A DNA stretch of 64,000 bases from Candidatus Manganitrophus morganii (lineage in GTDB: Bacteria; Nitrospirota; Nitrospiria; SBBL01; Manganitrophaceae), in NCBI GenBank assembly GCA_021651055.1, contig JAJHOH010000001.1:4096001-4160000 (forward strand). The letters run 5' to 3'. Below, in pieces: positions 2,539-57,559 of this stretch. The position numbers and the translations under genes are program-made. The notes below the pieces were generated by a model that did no database searches, was not told the origin of the DNA, and worked only from the letters and a program-made list of their open reading frames with translations. Position 1 is the first letter of the stretch, and every line of letters starts with the position of its first letter.

Positions 2539-3747
2539 CTACTGATCGACGGAGGGAGCAGGTGACGCGCGGTCCGATTTTCTCCGGTTGAATTCGGTTA
2601 AATTGACCGGTAGATGGATGGTCATGGTCGTTCCTTTGCCGAGTTCCGAATGGACATCGATGCTGCCGCGGTGTTCTTCAATAATATGATGGCACATCAT
2701 CAATCCGAGGCCGGTTCCTTCATTTTGTTTTGTCGTGAAGAAAGGATTGAATAGCTTTTGAATGTTTTCTTCGGCGATGCCGACACCGGTGTCTTCAACG
2801 GCCACATGGAAGAAGGCGTGGTCTTTTTTATCGAAGTCGGCGGATGTTTTTACCCGAATGTAGCCCTCATGGGTCGCCTGGATGGCATTCAGAAGGATAT
2901 TTAAAAACACCTGCCGTATCTTTTCCCGATCAACATAACAGAGAGGAAGATCGGGCTCGAAGTCTTGCCGAATCGTCAGCCCTTTCTTTTTTGCTTCATT
3001 ATCAATAAAGGTGATGGTTTCATAAAGAAGATCGTTGATATTCACCCCGTTTAATTTCAGCCCCTCTTCTTCGGGGGTTTTCGAATAGTGAAGAAGCTGA
3101 CTGATCAGCATCTGAATCCGATGGGTTTCGCCCAGTGCGACGGCATAAAATTTATCCCAAAACTCCTCGTCTTTCACCTCTTCGTCATATTTTTTAGGAA
3201 TCATCTGAAGAAAGGTATTAATCGCGACCAAGGGGTTGTTGATTTCGTGCGCCATGCCGGCCGCCAGAATCCCGATCGCCGTCAGCCGATTGGCTTGAGC
3301 CATTTTTTTGAATGTTTCTATTTTTTCGGCATAAAGGCGGTCCCGCTCTTTCACCAAGTAGTAGCGCTCGATCCCCTGCTTTAGGGTTTGTTTTAATTCT
3401 TCTTCGTTGTAGGGCTTGGTGATGTATCGATATACTTTTCCGCGGTTGATTGCGTCGATCACCAATTCTATCTCGGTATAAGCGGTGATCAGCATCCGAA
3501 TGAGGTTGGGCCTCTTCACCGAAATACGCCGGAGCAATTCAATGCCGGTCATATCCGGCATGCGTTGGTCCGAAACGATCAACGCCAACTCGGGATGCCT
3601 TTCGATGAGCTCGAGCGCAGCTTCCCCGCTTCCGGCCGTATGGATCGTAAATTCTTTTTTGAAAAGATTTTTGAAGGTGACGAGGGCCATCTCTTCGTCG
3701 TCAACAAAGAGAATCGGATAGTCTTTATATCGGAGCGCTTCCGGCAT
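2539..3747 (-). CDS. Response regulator-histidine kinase fusion
   Basis: Cytoplasmic signalling protein with an N-terminal receiver domain and a C-terminal kinase. Receiver (about 10-125): acidic pair 'VDDEE', phosphoacceptor Asp60 in 'VSDQRMPD', and Lys111 in 'ITKPYN'. A short coiled segment leads to HisKA (about 155-225) with His167 in 'GMAHEINNP', the NtrB/AtoS-like H-box. The ATPase domain (about 270-390) shows an N box (NILLNAIQAT), G1 (DTGVGI) and G2 (GTGLGL). The gene overlaps the end of the preceding hybrid kinase by 23 bases, so the two are translationally coupled. Since this protein carries a receiver in front of its own kinase, a phosphorelay from the hybrid kinase to Asp60 is the obvious inference. 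No DNA-binding output domain is present, so the final target is unknown. Confidence 0.9.
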   Translation of the reverse strand: MPEALRYKDYPILFVDDEEMALVTFKNLFKKEFTIHTAGSGEAALELIERHPELALIVSDQRMPDMTGIELLRRISVKRPNLIRMLITAYTEIELVIDAINRGKVYRYITKPYNEEELKQTLKQGIERYYLVKERDRLYAEKIETFKKMAQANRLTAIGILAAGMAHEINNPLVAINTFLQMIPKKYDEEVKDEEFWDKFYAVALGETHRIQMLISQLLHYSKTPEEEGLKLNGVNINDLLYETITFIDNEAKKKGLTIRQDFEPDLPLCYVDREKIRQVFLNILLNAIQATHEGYIRVKTSADFDKKDHAFFHVAVEDTGVGIAEENIQKLFNPFFTTKQNEGTGLGLMMCHHIIEEHRGSIDVHSELGKGTTMTIHLPVNLTEFNRRKSDRASPAPSVDQ

Positions 3748-6700
3748 AGAGCCCTTTCCCCGCTTTTTCCGTCGGGACGCCGGGTTGCGTCAGCGGAAGA
3801 GAAATGACGACCTCCGTTCCCGAACCGACTTTGCTCTTCACGTCGATCTTTCCGTGGTGGTTTTCGATAATCTTGTAGGTGATGGTCATCCCCAGCCCCG
3901 TTCCCTTGCCCACCTCCTTGGTGGTAAAAAACGGATCAAAGATATGGATAAGGTCCTTCTCGGAAATACCCGAGCCGGTATCCCGGACGGAGATCCGAAC
4001 GCGGTCCCCTTCCTGCTCCGTTTTGATGTACACCTCTCCTTGATCGGGAATCGACTGAACCGCGTTCTGAAGGACATTCATGAAGGCCTGGTTGATTTGT
4101 CCAGGAATCGCCTCAACGGATGGTACTTTTCCATATTCCCGTCGGATCGTAATTCGATGGGCGATCTCGTGTTGAAAGAGTTGAAGGGTTGATTCAAGCC
4201 CCTCGTGAAGATCGAAGGGCTTCAGAACCTCTTCATCTTTTCTTACAAAGGTTTTTAGGCTTTTAATGATATTCTCGGTGCGGTCGAGCCCGTTTTTGAT
4301 CACTTGAACGGAGATGTCGATATCCTCGAACAGCTCTGTTCTTTCAGCGGGATTCAGTCGATCCGCAACCTTGATCTGTTCCAACGAGCGCCGGACAATG
4401 GCAAGACTCCCCTTGGCGAAGCTGATCGGGTTGTTGATTTCATGGGCCACCCCTGCGACCAACAGGCCCAAGGCCGCCATTTTCTCCGATTGAACCAGCT
4501 GGCTTTGCGTTTCCTTGAGCTCTCGCAGCGTCTCTTCCAATTGATGATTCCGAATCTGGATCTCACGCTCTAATTTTCTGAGATTGATCAGAGAACGAAC
4601 GCGGGCGCGCAATTCTTGCGAGTTGAAAGGCTTCGTGAGATAGTCGTCCGCGCCGTGTTCCAATCCTTCGATCTTTGTCGTAATGCCGGTTTTCGCCGTG
4701 AGAAGAATGATTGGAATGTGGCAGGTGCGCGGCTCTTCTTTGATTTCACGGCAAAGCTGATAGCCGTCTTTATACGGCATCATCACATCCGAGATCACCA
4801 GGTCGGGAACCTCGGACATTGCCCGCTCGACCCCCTCTCTTCCATCTTTAGCGAAGAGAAGTTGATATTCGTCCTTTAATTGCGATGCGATATAACTGAG
4901 CATGTTCGGGTTATCTTCGACCAGGAGGAGGCGATGCCGGCTGTCGGTACGGCTTGTCTCTTCCGGAAGAGGGGCCGCCTCCCTTACGATGTCTGCCGTG
5001 ACATAATCCGCCTGGGTTTCGAGAGATTTGGTCCAATCTTCTTCTCTCCTCTTTTCCGGGACGGGAACGATCTCGGTTCGGCGGTCCAAGGCCCCGGGGA
5101 CATCTTCCAACCGGGTATAGATGGGGATGGTAAACAAAAAAGTCGTCCCCCTCCCCTCTTCGCTTTCCGCCCAAATTTTTCCATGATGAAGCTCGACCAG
5201 CTCCCGAGAGAGCGCCAGGCCGATGCCGGTTCCTTCATATTTTCGGCTGGCGGAGCTGTCCGCTTGGGAGAATCTGCTGAAGAGCTTCGGCATATGTTCT
5301 TTCGGTATCCCGATTCCGCTGTCGGCCACCTTGACAAGCACATCGTTTTCCTGCCGTGAACAGGAAACGGTGATCTCCCCTTTGTCAGTGAACTTCAGCG
5401 CATTAAATACGAGGTTGAGAATGACCTTCTCGATCTTATCGGCGTCAAAGAAGAATTCAGGAATCGTTTCTTCAGACGTAAATCGAAGGTCCAACGATTT
5501 TTTCTCCGCCATCGGGCTGACGGAGAAGACGACGTCGTTGACATACTTGGCAAAATCGGCTCGATTGTAATAAAGCTCCATCTTGCCGGCGTCCACCTTC
5601 GCCAGATCCAGCAGGTTATTGATCAACTTTAATAAGCGCAAGGAGTTCGTTTGCATGATGGTGAGATATTTTTCCTGATCTTTCGTGAGCTTTCCTAAAT
5701 TTCGGCTGAGCATCATTTCGGTGGGGGCAAGAATCAGCGTAATCGGCGTCCGCAATTCATGGCTGATATTGGCGAAAAACTTTGATTTGATTTGATCGAG
5801 CTCTTGAAGTTTCTGGTAGGATTCCTCGAGCTGGTGCTTGCTTTCCGCTAATTCCCGGGTCCGTTCATCTACTTTATGTTCCAGCTCGCCCGCCCATTGT
5901 CGAAGCTCCTCCGACATCTTGCTGACGTCGTCATAGAGAAGGGAGTTGCTCAGGGCGATCGACGCTTCGGCGCGGAGGTTTGAAAGAAAATCGAGATCCA
6001 TGTTGGAGAAAGATTTAAGATTATCTTTTTCTCCGATGTTGACGATACCGATGAGCTTTCCGTCATGAATAAGAGGAAGAGCGACTTTCGCATCAAAGGT
6101 TTTGAAGTATGATTTTGCTATTTGACGTATCGGTTCAAGTTTGGGATCGAGTTCTATTTCTTCCAATTCTACAACTTGATCTTCTTCTTTCATCCAAGAA
6201 AGAAAAGGGTGATCCGGGGTAATCTGCCCATGACCGGGAGTTATTTCCCCTCTTACCACTTTGAATTTCTGCTCTTTATCGTTCCACAGAACCAGTATAA
6301 TTCTTGAAACGTAAAGTGCTCCCTGAATGGTTGTGGCTAATTTGGTGATTAAGTCATCCAAATTTTTAAGTGCTGCGAGCTCTTTGACCATTCCCTGTAG
6401 AATCTTCTGCATATCATATTGGCGACGCTGAAAAAGATGATCGATACGCGGCTGAATAAATTTGGTGTAAGGGATTAAAAAGGCGACACCAAATGAGATA
6501 AGGAATGCAAATTTTGAAGTAGATAAGGATGTTAAATAGTCTTTTGTAAAATACAGACCGCTGATAAGCGGTAATAGAATGATTGACGACATCGCCAACC
6601 AGCTTAATGTCTTATGAAATACTGTACGTATATCTAAAAACCGATATTGAATAATCGTATAAGCAACAATAACAGTATATACAGCAACAAAATAAATTCC

Positions 6701-7285
6701 ATACGGAAACAATGGCAAATTAAAAACAGGAAAGAAGGCTGTAGAGCCTCCACAAAATCCAATGGTAACACCAATGAAGAGTAACTTGAGCTGGTTATGA
6801 ATTTGACCCGTGGTGTTCTTGTATGCATTAAAAAGTAATTTATGAGAATAAGTGACTAAAGTTATAAAAAAGATGACAAAGAGAAAATAAAAGGTGCCCG
6901 GTTTTGTATAATAATTAAAAGGTGCGAGGGGAGCAGGATAAGCCAATAAGTTGCTTAAATTAATAATCTCTAAGAGCCCGGCGGCTGAGTAAGAAATAAA
7001 TAGAATTTCCTTACGGACCTGATTAATCAACCTGAAAACAAAATCCATAAAAAAAGGGCCGATTAAGATGGCGCCAAAATAGTGTATCCGGATCCATAAT
7101 TGAGCGGATTCGATATTTGTTGAGGAGGTCATCATCCCGAGTCCCAAACTCCAGATGGCGACGCTTAGACAAAAAAGGGCCCATGCTCTATTAAGGGGTG
7201 CTTTCCAATTTTTTAGATAGACAAATAGGCCGATTAGAAAGCTAACGGTGGCGGTTCCGATGCAAGAAATGTCAAAAGAGGTCAT
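3725..7285 (-). CDS. Giant membrane hybrid sensor kinase (7TM-GAF-HK-REC-HK)
   Basis: An 1186-residue sensor. Residues 1-290 contain about eight hydrophobic helices resembling the 7TM histidine-kinase input module. A GAF-like domain (about 300-450) and a coiled coil (about 455-500) follow. The first kinase core has '[11 protein letters not shown]' (about 510) and an ATPase domain with '[10 protein letters not shown]' and 'GTGIGLALS'. A receiver follows (about 785-905; 'LVEDNPN', 'VISDVMMP', 'LTKPFN'). A second kinase core has 'GVAHEINNP', 'DTGSGI' and 'GTGLGM'. Two complete kinase cores flanking one receiver is unusual. The start codon overlaps the PilZ-reductase stop as ATGA. The first third is much AT-richer than the rest, suggesting a chimera. 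The ligand of the 7TM part cannot be read from sequence. Confidence 0.9.
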
Positions 7286-8952
7286 TTAATGGGCCTTTTC
7301 TGTTTTCTGCCGTATGTCCTGTGAGCATTTACAAATTTACCATTCGCGACATTGGCACAAACAGCAAGCTCTCCTGCCAGTGATGTGGCGGCCGCGATTT
7401 CTGAAAATTTTTCCACCTTTCCATTTCCGTAACAGTCAATGAGTTCGAGACATTCTCTCTGGCTTGCCAACTCCGCTCCACCACCCACAGTTCCAACGAA
7501 GAGGTTAGGCAATTTAAGGCTTAAATATAAGTCTCCTCCATCCGTTTCCTCAAAGTTGCTTACTCCAACGTGAGAATCGACGACGTTTGCCACATCTTGT
7601 CCGCACGCAATAAAAAGAGCCGTTAAACCATTTGCAACATGTCCATTCATCCCTATCATTCCGGCATTGACACTTGATAACATTGCGGTATGAAAGTAGG
7701 TTGTGATATCCTTTGGAGTGATTTCGAAAATTCTTTTAACAATCTTATTCGGTACGATCGCCTCACAAATAACACTTTTTCCGATGCCAAATGAAAAGTT
7801 GTGTGCAGAAATCTTCTTGATAGATGAAAAGTTTGAACGCATGTAGAAGCGCTTAGGCTTTACAATTGGCACAATAAATTTACATGCGGCTTCTGTCGCA
7901 AAATTAATCATATTTAAGCCCATTGCATCGCCGGTCGAATAGCAAAATTTTACGGTAATATTTTTGTCATAGATAATAGGCTCTATTTTCAAAAGTTTAC
8001 CGTATCTTGTTGTTGCTTCAGCGTGCTTTTTTATTAACTCGAAATTGGCTTGTAACCAATAACAGAATTGATGGGCCTGATTTAGAGTATTAAAGGTAAA
8101 CAGTGGAGAAATGTGCGTTTCATCTTTAATGATCCTCGTCGTGACGCCTCCTGACATATGCAGAATTTGCATGCCGATCGAGTATGTATAAACCAATGCG
8201 CCTTCCGTGGTGGCAAGAGGAATATAAAAATCCCCTTTTGCAAATTGACCATTTATTTTGAGCGGACCTGCGACGCCAATAGGAACCTGGGTAATGCCTA
8301 TAAAGTTTTCGATGTTTCCCTGTAGGTTTTTTGGATTTTCACTGAATACGCCGATATGATTAAATTCCACACCGGTCTTGGCGCTTAACCATTCTCTTCG
8401 TGCTTTTGCGGCAGCAACCGTATAATCAATGTCTTTTCGTTTCGGAACGAGATCCGTTTTTCTGAGATCGGCGCTCTTTCCATTATTGGCTTCCATGTGC
8501 CAGAGATCTGTAATTCGGCGGATCATTTTTCTATTATTTTTATCAGAAACAGGTTCGGCCGGTTTTTCCTCACTCAGCCTTCGATTCTTTTCCTTTCCTC
8601 TTCTATCAGGAATCGATGAATTAGAGCTCCTGATGAACTTTTCCCAGCCTCCCAGCTGATTATCAACTGAATGAATGAACTCAATGCCATACTGCTGTTT
8701 CTCATCGTTTCCCCATTTAAATTTTATTCTGGCTTGTACGGGCTCTAGAGGATCAGGCAAGCTAATCTCAATAATACCTTTATCAATTCGGGGGAGAGTA
8801 TGATCGGTTGAAACGGAGAGACCGGCCAGTCCAATATCGATTGCCGTGCCTGTGAAGATTTTCTTTTTGCGAGTATCGGACTCTCTCAGTATGAGTCGTA
8901 TTTCTAGTATCTCTCTGACTCGAAAATACGTTCTGCGATCGTGTTTATTCAT
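7282..8952 (-). CDS. PilZ domain fused to class I HMG-CoA reductase
   Basis: Residues 5-95 form a PilZ domain: an RxxxR-type motif 'RTYFR' (7-11), a DxGxxG variant 'DIGLAG' of the usual DxSxxG (39-44), and a 'YGIEF' strand. A polar Arg/Lys-rich linker (105-175) leads to HMG-CoA reductase, which reduces HMG-CoA to mevalonate with NAD(P)H. Signatures: 'ENFIG...PIGVAGPL', Glu250 in 'ATTEGAL', 'GDAMGLNM', Lys392 in 'GIGKSVICEA', Asp453 in 'ACGQDVAN', 'GTVGGGAELASQ' and His544 in 'NAHRTYGR'. All four catalytic residues (human Glu559, Lys691, Asp767, His866) are present, and the motifs match class I better than class II. It is the first gene of an operon with two sensor kinases. Control of the reductase by cyclic-di-GMP is inferred; the DxSxxG serine is replaced by Gly. 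Confidence 0.9.
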   Translation of the reverse strand: MNKHDRRTYFRVREILEIRLILRESDTRKKKIFTGTAIDIGLAGLSVSTDHTLPRIDKGIIEISLPDPLEPVQARIKFKWGNDEKQQYGIEFIHSVDNQLGGWEKFIRSSNSSIPDRRGKEKNRRLSEEKPAEPVSDKNNRKMIRRITDLWHMEANNGKSADLRKTDLVPKRKDIDYTVAAAKARREWLSAKTGVEFNHIGVFSENPKNLQGNIENFIGITQVPIGVAGPLKINGQFAKGDFYIPLATTEGALVYTYSIGMQILHMSGGVTTRIIKDETHISPLFTFNTLNQAHQFCYWLQANFELIKKHAEATTRYGKLLKIEPIIYDKNITVKFCYSTGDAMGLNMINFATEAACKFIVPIVKPKRFYMRSNFSSIKKISAHNFSFGIGKSVICEAIVPNKIVKRIFEITPKDITTYFHTAMLSSVNAGMIGMNGHVANGLTALFIACGQDVANVVDSHVGVSNFEETDGGDLYLSLKLPNLFVGTVGGGAELASQRECLELIDCYGNGKVEKFSEIAAATSLAGELAVCANVANGKFVNAHRTYGRKQKRPIK

Positions 8953-9261
8953 ACAGTTAATCCTTAATGCTCAAACTGATTTCAGCAAGAATAGTTCCAC
9001 TTCAGGAACATCATCTTGAATTAAATCCATATAAATAAATAGCTTTACTAATACATCGGTATCTTAAGTTTGATAAGAACATAGGCTATGAGGATTGTAG
9101 GATTGTAAATTTAAGAATTGAAAGAAAGAAATAAATAAATGCGAAGGAAGTGTTGGTCTTGATATGCTTGTTGCCCTTGTTTCTGCGTTGTTATTCAATC
9201 TTCAACTCCAGACAAGGTCGCAAAAACAATCAGATACCGGAGGAAACTATACAATAAGTTG
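8953..9261 (-). other. About 300-base AT-rich leader of the PilZ-reductase operon
   Basis: Between the candidate promoter at 9262-9289 and the reductase start there is a long AT-rich untranslated stretch. No sizeable gene is present. A 19-codon frame starting near 9032 (MDLIQDDVPE...) ends just before the reductase, but lacks a ribosome binding site. I see no known riboswitch pattern. It may be a regulatory leader or decayed sequence. Confidence 0.4.
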
Positions 9262-9289
9262 AATATACATTAAAAAAGCCGATTGTCAA
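9262..9289 (-). promoter_or_regulatory. Candidate sigma-70 promoter for the PilZ-HMGR operon
   Basis: On the minus strand TTGACA (complement of 9284-9289) is followed after 16 bases by TATATT (complement of 9262-9267), preceded by TG. It faces the reductase gene and implies a leader of about 300 bases. Confidence 0.6.
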
Positions 9290-9419: not shown

Positions 9420-9495
9420 TGGTGAGCCGCCTGGGATTCGAACCCAGGACACCCGCCTTAAAAGGGCGGTGCTCTACCAACTGAGCTAGCGGCTC
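9420..9495 (-). tRNA. tRNA-Lys (anticodon UUU)
   Basis: A full cloverleaf is visible on the minus strand: acceptor stem GAGCCGC pairs with GCGGCTC, the D-arm contains AGTTGGTAGA, and the anticodon stem CCGCC/GGCGG encloses loop CTTTTAA, giving anticodon TTT. The T-arm is CTGGG-TTCGAAT-CCCAG, and the 3' CCA is encoded (complement of 9420-9422). It is 76 bases long. Its 3' end points into the AT-rich tract containing the PilZ-reductase operon. No integrase or repeated tRNA end was found nearby. Confidence 0.97.
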
Positions 9496-57211: not shown

Positions 57212-57559
57212 TCAATTCTGGAGTTTCTCCAAGCGTTTGATGTAAGCATAAAGGGCGGGGTTCTTCTTTTCCATATCGTGAAACTCCAGCCCGATGGCAT
57301 ATTGACCCGCTGCTTTAAGTGCAGTGGCCCAAACCACTTGACCGTAGAGCGATTCGTCGATCGCCTCCCCTTCTTCGGTCTTCACTGATATTTTCACGAG
57401 CAGCAGATCCCCCTTTTGGTAAGGACCTTTGACGTAAACCCCCATTCCATAGATCGAAACATCACGAATCATCGCATCGACCGTTTTTTGAAGACCGTGC
57501 GGTGTGATGCGGGCCACAGTCAGGAGCGGAACCCGCTTCTGTTTTCTGCGATTCTCCAT
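57212..57559 (-). CDS. Stand-alone PilZ-domain protein
   Basis: A 115-residue single PilZ domain. It starts MENRRKQKRV with the RxxxR motif (Arg4/5 to Arg9) and has a canonical 'DVSIYGMGVYV' (DxSxxG), 'GDLLLVKISV', 'GQVVWATALKAAGQYAIGLEFHDM' and a short C-terminal helix. Both cyclic-di-GMP contact motifs are intact, unlike the PilZ of the HMG-CoA reductase fusion. It would act as a small adaptor in the cytoplasm. It converges with glutamate dehydrogenase and sits 33 bases downstream of the phospholipase-like gene. Confidence 0.88.
   Translation of the reverse strand: MENRRKQKRVPLLTVARITPHGLQKTVDAMIRDVSIYGMGVYVKGPYQKGDLLLVKISVKTEEGEAIDESLYGQVVWATALKAAGQYAIGLEFHDMEKKNPALYAYIKRLEKLQN

Follow-up and report, generated by a model that had tools for sequence, protein, structure and literature searches.

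In Ralstonia, the phcBSRQ operon encodes the methyltransferase PhcB, which makes a fatty-acid methyl ester signal, the sensor kinase PhcS, the receiver-kinase PhcR and the receiver PhcQ (PMC8578825), and both phcB and phcS are under balancing selection (PMC6580516). In the ComQXPA system of Bacillus subtilis, polymorphism covers the signal-making genes and the receptor together, in one block (PMC4408185). The window analysed here, a stretch of 64,000 nucleotides from the genome of Candidatus Manganitrophus morganii (one 4.29-Mb contig), carries on its minus strand three genes in the order of phcBSR, i.e. a putative synthase, a sensor kinase and a receiver-kinase without output domain, and in both systems the synthase and kinase genes are polymorphic. 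The same genome contains a second locus (L109) where a PilZ-methyltransferase occurs in a like layout. However, whereas PhcB is a SAM methyltransferase, the enzyme of the window locus is an HMG-CoA reductase (HMGR)-like reductase with an N-terminal PilZ domain, a methyltransferase being found only at the second locus; and, compared with PhcS, the window sensor is of the 7TM-GAF type and its kinase is a kinase-receiver-kinase hybrid. Because the putative synthase belongs to another family and the likeness is one of layout, we do not class the locus as a phc operon. It is nevertheless probably a synthase-receptor signalling operon arranged like phcBSR, the PilZ-HMGR protein resembling the partner that makes the signal in a bacterial pair for signalling between cells.

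The first gene of the operon (P0001; 7282..8952, minus strand) is an open reading frame of 1671 bases encoding 556 amino acids. The earlier note had read a PilZ domain and an HMG-CoA reductase fold in this one protein, and Pfam bears this out, with matches to PilZ at residues 5-99 (8656..8940, minus strand; 24.8 bits, E=3e-5, cut-off 22.5) and to HMG-CoA_red at residues 182-549 (7306..8409, minus strand; 365 bits, E=4e-109). The gene model is supported by an AAGGA sequence, similar to a ribosome-binding site, a few bases 5' of the ATG and by the fact that four bases are shared with the next gene. The latter (3725..7285, minus strand) encodes HK1, a hybrid histidine kinase of 1186 amino acids composed of HisKA_7TM (11-219), GAF (308-447), HisKA-HATPase, receiver (787-897) and second HisKA-HATPase domains, and itself overlaps the gene of a 402-amino acid receiver-HisKA-HATPase protein, HK2 (2539..3747, minus strand), PhcR-like in its architecture, so that the order is fusion gene, HK1, receiver-histidine kinase. 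No dedicated transcriptional output was identified, a point against a signalling role, and a PDB sequence search with the 7TM-GAF region of HK1 returned no match. Upstream of the fusion gene, a promoter-like site (TTGACA-16-TATATT; 9262..9289, minus strand) agrees with the consensus at 11 of 12 positions, a consensus match only, and such sites were no more numerous than in shuffled sequences; none of the small open reading frames inspected 5' of the gene was convincing. AlphaFold2 models of the whole fusion protein (3-row alignment, pLDDT 35) and of the PilZ domain alone (pLDDT 36) were discarded. Literature searches for PilZ with HMGR, c-di-GMP with HMGR and HMGR with autoinducers found nothing relevant in the collection of papers searched.

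The fusion is not a misassembled join, a possibility raised by the earlier note and ruled out by the synteny of the gene across several genomes. Our sample of the genus comprises six genomes, two of them fragmentary, and two-domain orthologues occur in three of the five other than the window genome: G005 (70% identity), G002 (57%) and G004 (57%, with a frame broken near the C-terminus). Relatives of the protein were found in 6 of the 270 genomes of the class, namely the window genome, G002, G004, G005, G496 and G326, the last of which belongs to another family and has a PilZ-HMGR orthologue. The fusion genes of the window genome and G005 differ with a dN of 0.20 (dS is saturated) and those of G002 and G004 have a dN/dS of ~0.15. 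Together with the orthologues, these values indicate a conserved protein under purifying selection.

Nucleotide identities between genomes were compared in 250-base steps along 18 kb. Identity of the window genome is ~97% with G004 and ~93% with G002 except between ~6080 and ~9250, where both values fall to 46-65%; G002 and G004 are ~95% identical to each other within these limits. This block (6080..9250, minus strand) is an allelic cassette, exchanged as one piece between close relatives, which holds the sensor part of HK1, the entire fusion gene and its 5' region; a tRNA-Lys (TTT) gene lies just beyond its upstream edge (9420..9495, minus strand) and occupies the same place in G003. The identity of the window genome to G005 is even, ~72% over most of the stretch, both within and beyond the block, so that these two genomes have one allele in common while G002 and G004 carry another. 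Because G004 is nearer the window genome outside the block and nearer G002 inside it, recombination is the simplest cause of the exchange. At the protein level, the two alleles of HK1 are 22-46% identical over residues 1-250, 54-69% over residues 251-400 and mostly 90-100% (about 98%) over residues 401-1186, the drop in identity to the G002/G004 allele defining a swappable sensor part from residue 1 to ~400 (6085..7285, minus strand). The synthase-like gene and the sensor half thus vary together and the kinase half is conserved, as in ComQXPA, where the signal-output half of ComP is conserved. Unlike ComQXPA, loci of the window type have neither a peptide signal nor a prenyltransferase, and their enzymes are of the acyl-thioester or methyl-transfer type and carry PilZ. 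Both the operon and the recombination pattern point to signalling.

A third allele extends this pattern beyond homologous enzymes. G003 has no HMGR match; at the corresponding site, flanked by the same genes, it encodes a PilZ domain (E=6e-8, canonical motifs RSSTR and DLSENG) fused to an alpha-oxoamine synthase (E=1e-58), and the adjacent kinase is 30% identical to HK1 in its sensor and 85% in its kinase part. The alpha-oxoamine synthase superfamily includes BioF, Kbl, SPT and the CAI-1 synthase CqsA. The G003 enzyme hence belongs to the superfamily of the CqsA/LqsA alpha-hydroxyketone autoinducer synthases and, like these, lies beside a sensor kinase; it differs from them in its fusion to PilZ and in matching the BioF/Kbl/SPT models better than CqsA. 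Kinases related to HK1 (45-57%) are found elsewhere beside other PilZ fusions. At the second locus of the window genome (G000), a PilZ domain with a C-terminal class I SAM methyltransferase, assigned by sequence motif and homology as neither Pfam nor NCBIfam names it above cut-off, is followed by a MASE8-like sensor kinase and a receiver-kinase; this methyltransferase protein matches, over 465 amino acids, a Paraburkholderia protein encoded in a methyltransferase-kinase-response-regulator operon. G004 and G005 have PilZ-KASIII (FabH-like) proteins with 7TM sensor kinases, and in G002 such kinases accompany PilZ-TENA-like, PilZ-acyl-CoA dehydrogenase and PilZ-aldehyde dehydrogenase proteins (the PilZ of the last is weak, E=0.0035). 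Common flanks indicate that the second loci of G000, G002 and G004 occupy the same site; there, the kinase parts are 86-99% identical and the sensors, MASE8-like in G000 and 7TM-GAF in G002 and G004, do not align. The alternative enzymes that were inspected keep their catalytic residues. Other 7TM kinases of the window genome also have enzyme genes as neighbours: at L102 (2930-7904; G000:C1:1234001+), an acyl-ACP-reductase-like gene precedes a 7TM kinase and a receiver-GAF-HD-domain protein, possibly another acyl-signal circuit linked to c-di-GMP turnover, of which G001 (L100) has the first two genes; and at L101 (1757-7802), a 4HBT thioesterase is flanked by two 7TM kinases.

The PilZ domain is the element common to these fusions. 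Its canonical second motif is (D/N)xSxxG. For the window protein c-di-GMP binding is plausible: RxxxR is kept (R7-R11), and the second motif reads DIGLAG, with Gly for Ser. DIGLxG is common to all four orthologues of the genus, and Gly in this motif recurs in another PilZ protein of the window genome (NIGWGG). The PilZ domains of the fusion orthologues score 26-39 bits, and the G326 protein (38.9 bits) has canonical motifs, RHASR and NLSSGG. The weak match and the Gly for Ser count against a c-di-GMP-gated signal synthase. Searched against PDB sequences, the PilZ profile gave no match. The window genome has 19 further PilZ matches at E<=0.001, the fusion not counted, and is therefore rich in c-di-GMP-related proteins; one single-domain PilZ lies within the window (57260-57553, minus strand).

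The reductase part resembles class I HMG-CoA reductases (human HMGCR; archaeal 6hr7, the closest solved structure by sequence) in its fold, its catalytic tetrad, the DAMGxN NAD(P) motif and the ENxIG dimer motif. The earlier note had named E250, K392, D453 and H544 as catalytic; three of these stand, and the catalytic lysine is instead K379, which lies in the cis-loop 'IKK' and corresponds to human K691, K392 being the lysine of GxGK further on. Its description of a catalytically intact HMG-CoA reductase likewise holds for the catalytic residues and fails for those binding HMG. Human positions are numbered on an HMGCR sequence that agrees with the 6hr7 row, the G496 enzyme and the residue names in PMC9500038. 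In HMGCR, R590, S684 and D690 contact HMG and K735 forms a salt bridge (PMC9500038). All four are present in the human, 6hr7 and G496 enzymes; in the orthologues of the genus they become I, R/Q, I and T/A/L, respectively, and in G326 I, Q, I and A. R568 is replaced as well. The fusion protein scores 342 against the NCBIfam NADPH-HMGR cut-off of 441.8, which we did not use as evidence because the HMGR of the G496 mevalonate operon also falls below it. As the NADP-site and catalytic residues are kept, the natural reading is that the domain may be a redox enzyme for an acyl thioester other than HMG-CoA.

HMGR-like genes were also inspected in wider surroundings. The fusion protein falls in a clade of HMGR-like proteins (FastTree support 0.95), whose genes also adjoin a 7TM kinase in G326, G144 and G134, which represent three more genera; no second 7TM kinase was found in G144, and no other 7TM protein in G326. 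HMGR-like genes on plasmids (Vibrio, Alteromonas, Sinorhizobium and others) have no adjacent kinase with an HK1-like sensor; on the Sinorhizobium plasmid pMl1 (L057), the gene lies amid acyl-CoA carboxylase, biotin carboxylase and indolepyruvate ferredoxin oxidoreductase genes. In G156, two single proteins (L052, 1364-4063; L053, 1166-4144) join an HMGR-like domain to an EcKL/APH-type kinase domain after a short N-terminal region that resembles, by eye, a degenerate PilZ, and the gene that follows at L052 encodes a PPDK_N domain. At L007, L008, L048 and partly L049, UbiA, PPDK_N/PEP-utilizer and DUF3419 genes come after the HMGR-like gene, with CTP_transf and CDP-alcohol transferase also present at L007; these clusters apparently serve lipid synthesis.

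How should the fusion protein then be understood? The earlier note had proposed that a second messenger may gate mevalonate and isoprenoid formation. What survives of this is an input domain of the c-di-GMP type joined to an acyl-thioester reductase fold; the pathway is not supported. The strong HMG-CoA_red match and the catalytic tetrad would suit a c-di-GMP-gated HMG-CoA reductase supplying mevalonate for isoprenoids, but none of the nine searched genomes with such HMGR-like genes, the window genome included, has HMG-CoA synthase (PF08540), which was found only in a tenth, G496, and, by the same search, in four of the named control genomes. The window genome has GcpE of the MEP pathway, and DXR is present in eight of the nine genomes (the window genome and seven of the eight others). 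None of the three GHMP kinases of the window genome was identified as a mevalonate kinase: the first is an IspE-like gene beside a Prs-like gene, the second matches the family only in a general way and the third sits in a cobalamin-type cluster. G496 (Nitrospiria), on the contrary, has a mevalonate operon (L062) with HMGR, HMG-CoA synthase and mevalonate-kinase-like genes, as well as DXR, and its HMGR keeps R590, S684, D690 and K735. The search for other mevalonate genes, the MEP genes and the lost HMG contacts thus speak against a role in the mevalonate pathway; the fusion protein is probably not a mevalonate maker, and we regard this explanation as very improbable.

The main rival holds that fusion protein and sensor interact by direct contact: the PilZ-enzyme would be a cytoplasmic partner that, on sensing c-di-GMP and an acyl thioester, controls the sensor/GAF region of HK1. 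Contact would likewise explain the joint swap of gene and sensor, the GAF region lies within the swapped block and the gene overlap suggests equal dosage. We nonetheless find this reading unlikely: the alternative alleles are as diverse as alpha-oxoamine synthase, KASIII, methyltransferase, TENA-like, acyl-CoA dehydrogenase and aldehyde dehydrogenase, those inspected remain catalytically complete, the variable sensors are mostly transmembrane and the systems known to have a related operon layout are built on signal synthases. Alternatively, the enzyme could make a membrane or envelope lipid sensed by HK1 in its own membrane, with no signal passing between cells, as the UbiA/DUF3419 clusters with their HMGR-like genes might suggest. 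The relatives in these clusters have no PilZ and keep R590 and D690, and structural lipid synthesis predicts neither the replacement of an enzyme by a non-homologous one at the same site nor matched sensor swaps, which makes this idea quite improbable. A signal synthase is favoured by the block swap, the non-homologous replacement in G003 and the second locus of the same logic, as well as by the phcBSRQ parallel, the 7TM kinases beside HMGR-like genes of the same clade and the kept catalytic residues. From these sequence comparisons, we consider it fairly probable that the fusion protein is a signal synthase, probably gated by c-di-GMP, which acts on an acyl thioester and is paired with its receptor.

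We thus propose that the HMGR-like domain would act on an acyl thioester different from HMG-CoA and reduce it to a small signal of the alcohol or aldehyde type, probably lipophilic, and that the PilZ domain would tune this activity in response to c-di-GMP. The diffusible signal would be the ligand recognised by the 7TM-GAF region of HK1, and the kinase-receiver chain of HK1 and the receiver-kinase protein would relay it onward. More broadly, we lean towards the existence of a class of loci where PilZ places an exchangeable signal synthase (HMGR-like reductase, alpha-oxoamine synthase, KASIII, methyltransferase and others) under c-di-GMP control. Synthase and matching sensor would be exchanged together while the phosphorelay that they feed is conserved, and the HMGR-like enzyme would then be an undescribed kind of autoinducer synthase. 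If so, intracellular c-di-GMP and cell-to-cell chemical signals, usually studied apart, would be joined in single polypeptides, and quorum-type specificity would evolve through the exchange of entire enzyme classes. The enzyme-sensor pairs would also provide a set in which to look for new signals of the lipid type, in a lineage with manganese-oxidising autotrophs among its members.
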